A stretch of 48,632 nucleotides of DNA from an uncultured Alphaproteobacteria bacterium (GTDB lineage: Bacteria; Pseudomonadota; Alphaproteobacteria; HIMB59; GCA-002718135): NCBI GenBank assembly GCA_902553945.1, contig CACDMT010000005.1, positions 1-48,632 of the forward strand. Direction: 5' to 3'. Shown here piece by piece: positions 42,089-45,022 of this stretch. Positions within the stretch are counted from its first letter, which is position 1. Every line of letters begins with the position of its first letter. Made by a program: the position numbers and the translations under genes. Below the pieces are notes generated by a model. It saw only the letters and a list, made by a program, of their open reading frames with translations. It was not told where the DNA came from and searched no databases.

Positions 42089-42568
42089 ATGCAAATTGGC
42101 AAATACAAATACGAGTTTGATTTCTTTAGTTGGATCAAAAAAACTGAACTAGTAGAACTAGATAGTATTAATCCAACTGATGATCCTGTACGTCCAGAAC
42201 TAAATAGTGAGTTTCGTACATCTAAGGGAAGAAAAATATTTGGTCTAAAATATAAAGATAATATTGAAGGTGTTGTTTGTTTTGCTTTTACAAACGAAAT
42301 ACCTGCTACCATTAAAGAAATGGATCTTATGAGTACGGATGAAGATAAAGCATCTATTCCCGTTGCTTATACTCTATGGTCTTTTAAAAAAGGAGCCGGT
42401 AAAAAAATAATGAAAGAATTACAAAAATATTTTAAATCAAAAGAACAATTTGAGAGTATTATTACTATTTCACCACTAACTCCAGTTGCTACTCATTATC
42501 ATATTCGTAATGGAGCGAGATTAATAAAAATTAATCCAACAACTCAAAATTTTGAATATAAAATATAG
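42089..42568 (+). CDS. GNAT-like small protein
   Basis: The 159-residue protein looks like a divergent GNAT acetyltransferase. AYTLWSFKKGAGKKIMKELQKYF would be the acetyl-CoA loop and helix (motif A, with Gly-Ala-Gly), and ISPLTPVATHYHIRNGARLIKIN the later strand and helix. The substrate is unknown. It has no signal peptide and is flanked by a convergent secreted-protein operon on its right and by a divergent MATE gene on its left. Assignment is by motif only. Confidence 0.6.
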   Translation: MQIGKYKYEFDFFSWIKKTELVELDSINPTDDPVRPELNSEFRTSKGRKIFGLKYKDNIEGVVCFAFTNEIPATIKEMDLMSTDEDKASIPVAYTLWSFKKGAGKKIMKELQKYFKSKEQFESIITISPLTPVATHYHIRNGARLIKINPTTQNFEYKI

Positions 42569-42597: not shown

Positions 42598-43290
42598 TTA
42601 ATTAACTAATTCAATAAACAAACCGTCAAGAAATTTACCTTTTTGTATTTTTCCATCTTTAAAAGTAATAGTGCCAATACCATCTGGTAAACCGTTTTTC
42701 CATTCTCCTGTATAAATGGAGCCATCACTTTTTAAATGCAAAGAACCAATACCGTGCCTTTTACCATCTTTCCAATTTCCATTATAAGAATCTCCACTTT
42801 CATAAATTATTTTACCGAAGCCTTCAAAGTTTCCATTCTTAAAATTTCCCTCATAAATATTATTATTAATATCAATATATTTTCCTTTTCCATTAAATAC
42901 ACCGTCAATAAAATAGCCCTCGTAGTAATTACCATTTTTAAAATTTTTTTTACCAAAGCCTTCTATTTTTCCTAAAACAAAGTTCCCAATATACTCGTCA
43001 CCATTAACCCAAGTTAATTTTCCTTTTCCATGTAATCTATCATTTTTAAATTCACCTACATAATCGTTAAATAAATTTTTATTAAGCCAAATAAATGTAC
43101 CCTTGCCATTTATTCTCCCATTATTAAACTCTCCCTCATATGTAAATTCTTCACCTATTTTGATAGCACCTGAACAAATATTTTGAGATATGACTTTGTT
43201 ATTTTCTATTTTGCAACTAGTAAAATTTTCTTTTCCAAAAACAGGAAAAGATATAAGTAAAATAAATATATAAAAATTTAATCTGATAAT
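42598..43290 (-). CDS. Secreted MORN-repeat protein without a standard start codon
   Basis: An open frame runs from an in-frame TGA at 43324-43326 to the TAA at 42598-42600 and contains no ATG, GTG or usable TTG near its start. It encodes a hydrophobic signal (RLNFYIFILLISFPVFG) and then seven MORN repeats plus a partial one. In the numbering from 43290, Y-x-G-x-F/W motifs occur at residues 51, 77, 100, 123, 146, 169 and 193, a period close to 23. Each has the following G-x-G. Translation probably starts at ATT 43288-43290 or ATC 43285-43287, about 11-14 bases after AGGA, overlapping the stop of the upstream gene. That gives about 230 residues. MORN repeats bind lipids or proteins; an envelope role is likely. 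A substitution or sequencing error at the start codon is the alternative. Confidence 0.8.
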   Translation of the reverse strand: MIRLNFYIFILLISFPVFGKENFTSCKIENNKVISQNICSGAIKIGEEFTYEGEFNNGRINGKGTFIWLNKNLFNDYVGEFKNDRLHGKGKLTWVNGDEYIGNFVLGKIEGFGKKNFKNGNYYEGYFIDGVFNGKGKYIDINNNIYEGNFKNGNFEGFGKIIYESGDSYNGNWKDGKRHGIGSLHLKSDGSIYTGEWKNGLPDGIGTITFKDGKIQKGKFLDGLFIELVN

Positions 43291-44132
43291 GTTGCTGTAA
43301 ATCCTACTTTCCCAACACTCATTTCACAAACCTCGGAACCCGATGCACCTAACCATTCAGCTCCCATACCCTCACTAGTATCAAAAGATAGAGTTGCTTT
43401 AGGAGTTACGACTCCAATTGTATATGCAGCGGTAAAAGGATATATAATTTGCATCGTATCAGCTGATGCAGTATCATCCCAAGTAGCAGATTGAGTATTT
43501 GAATCAGCACAAATATTAGCTTCATTAGTATGTGTACCTGCTATAGTTCCTACACACCAAGAGGTTGCTCCAGTTGGTCTTCCTGCATGTGTATAAAAAC
43601 TCCACCAGTAAGTATTTGAACCTGCTCCATCAATATAGGCGCCATTATCTCCTCTTGCATCATACAGCCAAATTACTGTTTCTTCCAGGGTACCTGAAGG
43701 AATTGTAATTGTATCTCCTGATACAGATGCATTTGTAACAGAGCTACCATTAGCAGTCTTAGTAGCAGTTGCATCATTTGTGCCTCCTGTATAACAATCA
43801 GTGGTACCGTCTTTATCTAAAACAACTCCAGCTAAAGTAAAAGCCCTATTTAGTTTTACTCTCAAGTGAGTATAAGTTGTACCCATTGGTAATCCATCTA
43901 GAGGACACCAAGAAGCAACATCTGAACCGGCAGTAACCGCTGCAATATCAACTGTTTTTGATGTATCACAAACTTTTGTATATGTTGCACATTTAGAATC
44001 TTCACAAAAGTGCACTTCTTCCATTGTAACTTTATAAACACTAGCTCTACCATTATCTGCTGCAATCAATGATCCTGAATAAAAAATTACTACTAATAAA
44101 AAGCTTATAATTATTTTAAAATATTTAATCAT
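43278..44132 (-). CDS. Secreted eight-cysteine protein of unknown function
   Basis: I do not recognise a named family. The 284-residue protein has a signal peptide (about residues 1-24, ending LIAA). The mature part is rich in Ala, Gly, Thr and Ser and poor in Lys, Asn and Ile, unlike its neighbours, and its DNA is visibly richer in GC. Eight cysteines (in FCEDSKC, KVC, WCPLDG, DCYTGG, WCVG, ICAD and VCEM) could form four disulfides. Tyr/Thr/Val-rich strands suggest a beta-fold; ASVYKVTMEEVHFCED recalls secreted marine bacterial proteins. It starts 2 bases after the stop of the inverse-autotransporter barrel gene and overlaps the MORN gene. Confidence 0.75.
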   Translation of the reverse strand: MIKYFKIIISFLLVVIFYSGSLIAADNGRASVYKVTMEEVHFCEDSKCATYTKVCDTSKTVDIAAVTAGSDVASWCPLDGLPMGTTYTHLRVKLNRAFTLAGVVLDKDGTTDCYTGGTNDATATKTANGSSVTNASVSGDTITIPSGTLEETVIWLYDARGDNGAYIDGAGSNTYWWSFYTHAGRPTGATSWCVGTIAGTHTNEANICADSNTQSATWDDTASADTMQIIYPFTAAYTIGVVTPKATLSFDTSEGMGAEWLGASGSEVCEMSVGKVGFTATLSD

Positions 44133-44134
44133 AA

Positions 44135-45022
44135 TTATTCTGATGTCCTTGCTATTACAATGCCCGTACCTTCTGACTCAATTATTTGTTTATTTGTTCT
44201 TCGAACAATTGATAATAATTCTAAACTCATATCTCCTTTAACAAATGCTGTATCACTAATAAAATCAGTAGAAGCTGTAGGAGTTTCTCTTGCTGGATAA
44301 ATAAACATTATTTTTGCAAAATTACTTGAACCATCAATATTATTATCATCATAGCCTAGTTCAGCAATAAGATTTGGCGTAAGTGTCATTTCTAAACTAT
44401 ACTTTTCACCTTTTGAGTCTTTAGAATTTTTTATTGCATCCCACTCATAAGATTTAGCAATAATATTTGCCCATGGAATGTATGGTACTTGTCCAATTGC
44501 ACTGACTTCAATTCCATCTAAAGTTCTTTCAGTATAACTTCCAACAGTTTTACCACCACTAATTCCAGAATAATAATTTCCTATTAATTCAAATGCTGAT
44601 GTACGAAGCTCAAAACCAACACTAGCTCTTGAATTACCTTCTTCATCATAATCAAAAAAAACATTTGCTCCTGTTAAAGTATTTTTATTGTCAGATAGTT
44701 TACGATAACCAATACCTGAATTAATACTCAACCTATTATCACCACGAATTTTTGTATCATTTAATTGTAATTGAACAAATACTGAATCTACGCCAGGATG
44801 GTGAGAAATGGGTCTCACTGTAACAATAGAAAATTCAGGTTTGTAATCTTCACCAGCTATGATTTGTACCTGTGTATCTCCTTCACCGTCTAGTACATTT
44901 TCAACTGCAGAAGATAGACCGCCGGTAAATTTATCAATTATACTTTTTTTAACTATCTCTTCATCACCAGCATATGCGCTGAAAGATAGAATTAATATGA
45001 TTAAAAATTTCAGAAAATGCAT
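44135..45022 (-). CDS. Stand-alone inverse autotransporter (intimin/invasin-type) beta-barrel
   Basis: The 295-residue protein has a signal peptide (about residues 1-18, ending AYA). It then has a short helix-like linker (DKFTGGLSSAVENVLDGEGDTQVQI), matching the region before the barrel in intimin and invasin. Next comes an outer-membrane barrel containing LSINSGIGYRKLSDNKNTLTGANVFFDYDEEGNSRASVGFELRTSAFEL. The FFDYD segment, the GxGYR and the LDGIEVSAIGQVPYIPWANI block are the usual family landmarks. The chain ends right after the final strand (LLSIVRRTNKQI), so there is no Ig-like passenger. It is the first gene of a three-gene set with a secreted protein and a MORN protein. Confidence 0.82.
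   Translation of the reverse strand: MHFLKFLIILILSFSAYAGDEEIVKKSIIDKFTGGLSSAVENVLDGEGDTQVQIIAGEDYKPEFSIVTVRPISHHPGVDSVFVQLQLNDTKIRGDNRLSINSGIGYRKLSDNKNTLTGANVFFDYDEEGNSRASVGFELRTSAFELIGNYYSGISGGKTVGSYTERTLDGIEVSAIGQVPYIPWANIIAKSYEWDAIKNSKDSKGEKYSLEMTLTPNLIAELGYDDNNIDGSSNFAKIMFIYPARETPTASTDFISDTAFVKGDMSLELLSIVRRTNKQIIESEGTGIVIARTSE

Follow-up and report, generated by a model that had tools for sequence, protein, structure and literature searches.

Initiation at AUU, AUC, and AUA codons is reported to occur in bacteria, where IF3 discriminates against it (PMC4611024), and in E. coli ATT has been put at about 0.3% of ATG (PMC10666635, citing Hecht et al., 2017). Natural cases include infC, whose start codon is ATT in E. 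coli and ATC in Streptomyces (PMC5472188), and pcnB of E. coli, for which an AUU start is cited in PMC5601948, a paper that also presents conserved ATT codons as possible starts of ainS. The sigR gene of Streptomyces has GTC in 32 of 34 species and GTT in 2 (PMC5472188), while ribosome profiling in S. aureus has located conserved AUU and AUA starts, the former in cvfC1 and the latter in ccpN and infC (PMC13009471). Very few non-canonical starts are described as having been characterised experimentally (PMC5472188).

The locus considered here lies in a 48,632-nt stretch of DNA from an uncultured alphaproteobacterium, referred to below as the window. It is quite probably a functional gene for a secreted MORN-repeat protein, the third of a presumed operon, whose translation would start at an ATT or ATC codon located within the tail of the gene upstream. 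In this it would resemble infC and pcnB, with their natural AUU or AUC starts; however, infC is autoregulated by IF3, whereas the MORN gene has no link to translation factors. It would share with sigR a conserved non-canonical start misplaced by annotation (PMC5472188), but the GTC of sigR is accompanied by an extensive RBS and is reported as experimentally shown, whereas the MORN start is a sequence-based candidate; furthermore, sigR is the upstream member of its pair, and the MORN gene the downstream, overlapping one. Conserved AUU and AUA starts, like the MORN candidates, are also found in cvfC1 and ccpN (PMC13009471), where they come with an extended Shine-Dalgarno (SD) sequence and profiling data, in contrast to the modest SD of the MORN gene, which is known from sequence comparison. 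Finally, the genes with non-canonical starts compared here are regulators, factors, and enzymes, while the MORN product looks like a secreted protein. No earlier report of this gene was found in the open-licence literature.

The MORN-repeat frame and its protein

The frame and the elements of its product are as follows.

42598 to 43290, minus strand: gene for the MORN-repeat protein, with 230 codons and a TAA for a start at ATT
43324 to 43326, minus strand: TGA bounding the MORN frame upstream, identical in all three species
43234 to 43290, minus strand: apparent signal peptide IIRLNFYIFILLISFPVFG, recognised by eye, with likely cleavage before KEN
42601 to 43140, minus strand: MORN repeats, seven of them complete and the eighth partial, from Pfam, the structural model, and the repeat starts

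As the preliminary description had claimed, a gene of 241 codons without a stop occupies this stretch: on the minus strand, the frame is open from 42601 to 43323, between the TGA at 43324–43326 and the TAA at 42598–42600, and beginning at the ATT at 43290 it comprises 230 codons and a stop. The claimed lack of an ATG, GTG, or TTG at the front was likewise found, the first canonical start, CTG included in the search, being a TTG at codon 194. Consistently, the list of ORFs with ATG, GTG, or TTG starts contains no minus-strand ORF of at least 50 aa within the MORN frame of the window.

The protein matches the Pfam MORN family (PF02493) with an E-value of 1.9e-40 and 134.7 bits, against a gathering cut-off of 22.5, and a search of NCBIfam returned no family. 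Repeats start at residues 51, 77, 100, 123, 146, 169, and 193, and an incomplete eighth repeat begins at 216; the successive spacings are 26, 23, 23, 23, 23, 24, and 23, so that the seven regular 23-residue repeats first described are nearly exact, with spacings of 23 to 26 and the partial repeat in addition. Five AlphaFold models were built from the three orthologues introduced below, with mean pLDDT ranging from 83 down to 33; the best (83) has an N-terminal helix followed by a MORN beta sheet. The best structural match found by Foldseek for this model is the MORN1 protein 6t4d (E 4.7e-18), and comparison with the MORN1 structures 6t4d, 6t6q, and 6t68 gives TM-scores, normalised by query, of 0.70–0.77 at 31–35% identity. 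By sequence, the top match is FAP266 of 7sqc, with MORN1 proteins among the best behind it. Together, the several PF02493 repeats and the MORN beta fold identify the window gene as one for a MORN-repeat protein. The eukaryotic MORN1 proteins (6t4d, 6t6q, 6t68) thus share the fold of the window protein, but they come from apicomplexans and trypanosomes, whereas the window protein is bacterial and carries a signal-peptide-like leader; as modelled, the fold gives no function for it.

Read by eye, the leader follows the same pattern in the three species, with an arginine, a hydrophobic core, and an end in V-F-G, V-C-G, or V-Y-A, and the protein is apparently secreted, to the periplasm or the surface. 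Methionine is absent from the MORN frame of the window (0 of 230 residues) and of the two orthologues. At the 2.1% methionine of 16 window proteins, the chance of 0 in 230 is about 0.008; however, methionine is likewise scarce in 21 other MORN repeats, taken from 13 loci (7 of 483 residues), and its absence here was dropped as a meaningful signal.

Orthologues and selection on the frame

Two orthologues, from two species besides that of the window, were found in AG-893-F05 (genome G028, locus L086) and AG-333-D23 (G106, L085), both 88–89% identical to the window gene. A protein search of 101 genomes gave 13 with a match to the MORN protein, of which one besides the window's own is full length (G028); G106 was added when 102 genomes of the genus were searched at the DNA level. 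A scan of genome contigs yielded 18 MORN loci, namely AG-893-F05, AG-333-D23, and 16 distant ones (28–43% identical), while a search with the N-terminal part in 162 genomes matched 11, corresponding to the three known copies and 8 weak partial matches. No relative was found in the viral contigs searched. In two loci (L017 and L096), longer MORN proteins were observed in which the repeats are followed by a domain that contains an HExxH stretch (MFHELTHASLDF and MFHELVHASLDW, respectively), which we take to be perhaps a metallopeptidase.

All three species have 241 open codons, and their MORN alignment contains no gap, stop, or frameshift. Differences between the three pairs fall at third codon positions in 47 of 73, 38 of 61, and 58 of 91 cases. 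Nei-Gojobori dN/dS, calculated for the three species pairs with our own script, is 0.139, 0.189, and 0.159 over the whole frame and 0.128, 0.131, and 0.124 once the first 21 codons are excluded, as compared to 1.1–2.4 in the other two frames. The preliminary description had proposed that a low dN/dS would support a live gene, and values of 0.12–0.13 outside the leader were indeed obtained. This comparison shows selection that keeps the frame protein-coding in the three species.

For the 21-codon leader alone there is no clear purifying selection, with dN/dS values of 0.515, undefined (no synonymous changes), and 2.33 that are drawn from few changes. Within the leader, codons identical in all three species number 11 among the first 12 and 3 among the following 13 (Fisher p 0.001, in a post hoc comparison); the p value from permuting all codons is 0.015. 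The conservation of the first four leader codons is confounded by the upstream gene, whose coding sequence includes them. The most conserved 48 nt of the 843-nt alignment, with 2 variable columns, span the ATT/ATC junction.

The junction with the upstream gene

The MORN frame overlaps the end of a gene that follows, in turn, an autotransporter gene, and the relevant elements are listed here from the start of the presumed operon.

44135 to 45022, minus strand: inverse autotransporter beta-domain gene, first of the presumed operon (Pfam IAT_beta, E 2.5e-28)
43278 to 44132, minus strand: gene for a secreted-looking, fast-evolving protein of 284 aa without a Pfam or NCBIfam match
43302 to 43307, minus strand: Shine-Dalgarno-like GTAGGA, within the upstream coding sequence
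43288 to 43290, minus strand: candidate start ATT, 13-nt overlap with the upstream gene, identical in the three species
43285 to 43287, minus strand: candidate start ATC, 10-nt overlap with the upstream gene, identical in the three species
43278 to 43280, minus strand: TAA stop of the upstream gene, 11 relatives ending at the equivalent place

At the junction, the three species read ACA TTA TCA GAT TAA in the upstream frame, which is ATT ATC AGA TTA in the MORN frame. The ATT and ATC proposed as starts do overlap the upstream gene; they were thought to lie on its stop codon, but are instead within its last codons, by 13 and 10 nt. Within the open frame, the candidate codons common to all three species are ATT 11, ATC 12, ATA 18, and ATT 20, and ATA codons 38 and 44, located past the leader, are also shared. 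AG-333-D23 has no ATG, GTG, TTG, or CTG ahead of codon 191, and the only early canonical start of AG-893-F05 is a TTG at codon 25. This TTG was rejected as the true start, being present only in AG-893-F05 and inside the leader, where starting from it would leave little of the signal peptide. The alignment thus shows no canonical start common to the three species, and translation most likely begins at ATT or ATC. Aligning homologues at the start, as had been recommended, gave ATT and ATC in all three species, with no ATG, frameshift, or stop in the two orthologues, and the suggested non-canonical initiation is supported in that both orthologues keep the two codons and have no ATG or GTG at the front.

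A GTAGG(A/G) motif sits 11 nt before the ATT in the three species. With an anti-SD sequence that was assumed, its duplex energies in the three species are -4.7, -5.6, and -7.9 kcal/mol; under the same assumption, 9 of 38 window genes, a hand-picked part of the window's ORF list rather than every gene of the window, pair more strongly than -4.7, which would rank the MORN motif about tenth. Being in coding sequence, the motif could be accidental. The ATT is nearer to the usual SD spacing than the ATC, which would give a shorter, M-R-L leader, and the two are inseparable by substitutions because only three sequences are available. The mRNA near the start is less structured than 60–82% of windows in the region, and thus not unusually open.

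In five relatives of the operon (L037, L040, L041, L042, and L044), the stop of the autotransporter gene (TGA) and the ATG of the following gene share nucleotides as ATGA, a spacing classic for coupled genes, which fits coupled translation in the operon. For the MORN gene, the distance from stop to start is -13 (ATT) or -10 (ATC), which is overlapping, yet off the preferred -4, -1, and -8. Termination-reinitiation is indicated by a window of -8 to +6 according to PMC10666635, and the 13- or 10-nt overlap falls outside it, so that reinitiation would be inefficient; coupling is also reported to drop faster with larger overlaps (PMC12548453). Reinitiation at the MORN start is nonetheless plausible, and the start is probably coupled to termination at the TAA (43278–43280).

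Alternative readings of the junction

Rather unlikely, on our assessment, is a variant in which the ribosome restarts by position and not by codon identity, so that AUU, AUC, or even the UUA at the stop would be accepted. It is conceivable because inactivating the ribosome recycling factor is reported to make translation begin at non-canonical codons located after stops (PMC2268962). However, the same source describes a role for IF3 in normal reinitiation, which is lowered by excess IF3, and this role speaks against a restart by position.

An improbable alternative to the ATT or ATC at the front is a start at ATA 18, at ATT 20, or at the UUA overlapping the stop (TTAA). These codons are common to all three species, and only the UUA would give a spacing of -4 to the upstream stop, the commonest one of coupled genes (PMC12548453); on the other hand, starts at 18 or 20 would leave the leader without its arginine and with a shorter hydrophobic core, and a natural UUA start was not encountered in the parts of the literature on non-canonical starts that were consulted.

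Ribosomal frameshifting by -1 close to the end of the upstream gene, which would fuse the MORN repeats to the 284-aa protein and make a separate start unneeded, has a low probability as well. The MORN frame is indeed -1 relative to the upstream frame, and both are open over about 45 nt, from the TGA (43324–43326) to the TAA, in the three species. However, the overlap contains neither an in-frame slippery X XXY YYZ heptamer nor the weaker tetranucleotide with three identical bases in any of the three species, and a fusion would place the signal-peptide-like stretch in the middle of a protein. The position of the upstream stop also argues against such a fusion: the C-terminal pair of the upstream protein is SD in the window and SD, TD, TE, SE, or IE in 11 of 11 relatives (those compared among 16 loci with a relative of the upstream gene), placing the stop, on this comparison, where it usually stands.

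That the gene decayed only recently, or that its true start was lost through an assembly error, is suggested at first sight by a frame front without ATG, GTG, or TTG in the window but is scarcely credible, since the same junction is found in three species with no disabling change and under strong purifying selection; sequencing error and pseudogene status were rejected on these grounds and on the low dN/dS, and the start-codon substitution raised earlier, with ATG read as ATT or ATC, is very unlikely as three assemblies agree.

Start codons elsewhere in the clade

A clade-wide habit of missing canonical starts was also considered and rejected. Control frames were non-overlapping, had at least 100 codons and a codon-usage score above 0.12, and were flagged when no ATG, GTG, or TTG was present in their first 40 codons or first quarter. 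Only 1 of 188 coding-like frames was flagged: the MORN frame itself, among 38 in the window, against none of 150 from 200 kb of G028, whose own MORN copy escapes the flag because of its TTG at codon 25. The infC gene was matched in 4 of 5 genomes, with none in G000, and the G028 copy (L118), cut at its 5' end, was left out. In the three genomes of the genus that were compared (L116, L117, and L119), a TTG at the front is common to all three, and in two of them it is immediately preceded by an ATC or ATT; as read from these copies, infC is evidence neither for nor against non-canonical starts in this clade.

Origin of the MORN gene

The site is closed on its other side by a convergent gene.

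42089 to 42568, plus strand: convergent conserved gene of 159 aa closing the site, from locus comparison

The upstream 284-aa protein was matched in 18 of 101 genomes, which comprise the window's own, G028, and 16 distant ones (27–36% identical to the window protein), G106 having come through the DNA search. In all 16 distant loci, an inverse-autotransporter match precedes the relative of the upstream gene, and in none of them was a MORN match at E 1e-3 found within about 1.1–1.5 kb downstream of it. Instead, the convergent 159-aa gene (87–96% identical) comes directly after the relative of the upstream gene in 12 of the 16; among the remaining loci, a methylase gene is next in 3, and L030 has neither. 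The MORN gene was thus probably gained here, as an addition in one small group, gain appearing more economical than repeated loss. The same arrangement, with a stand-alone inverse-autotransporter beta-domain gene followed by a very fast-evolving secreted-looking gene, is observed in the window (43278–45022) and in L030–L045, beside the conserved convergent neighbour in 12 of these 16 loci, and on this comparison the site beside the convergent neighbour is a variable surface-protein locus.

Proposed expression and implications

On the preferred reading, that of a start at the ATT or ATC, the MORN gene would have been inserted between the stop of the upstream gene and the convergent gene. Its own start would have been lost or never present, and the last codons of the neighbour (ATT ATC AGA) borrowed in its place. 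Ribosomes terminating at the TAA, or recruited by the modest SD-like GTAGGA, would reach the ATT or ATC, and a start with formyl-Met would yield a protein beginning with M-I-R-L at the former or M-R-L at the latter. Low expression is expected from the roughly 0.3% efficiency of ATT relative to ATG combined with inefficient reinitiation. By analogy with known AUU and AUC starts, IF3 would damp it further, as both its discrimination against such codons and the effect of its excess on reinitiation would act on the MORN gene. The likely benefit would be a surface protein kept at a low dose, in small proportion to its operon partner.

Gene finders that use only the usual starts would miss or shorten the MORN gene. 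Judged from in-frame ORFs with ATG, GTG, or TTG only, the earlier claim that such programs would miss it fits the window and AG-333-D23, where the longest such ORF is about 50 aa, but not AG-893-F05, which has a 216-aa ORF beginning with TTG. A practical search is thereby suggested, for open and selected frames without ATG, GTG, or TTG in several species together.

Comparative evidence from the three species supports a conserved non-canonical start in these uncultured Alphaproteobacteria. Were a restart by position to be true, a newly acquired gene could be expressed at once from the tail of its neighbour, without a start codon of its own. More generally, the empty sites of relatives suggest a possible origin for such a start, in which a gene gained beside a stop codon borrows the tail of its neighbour.
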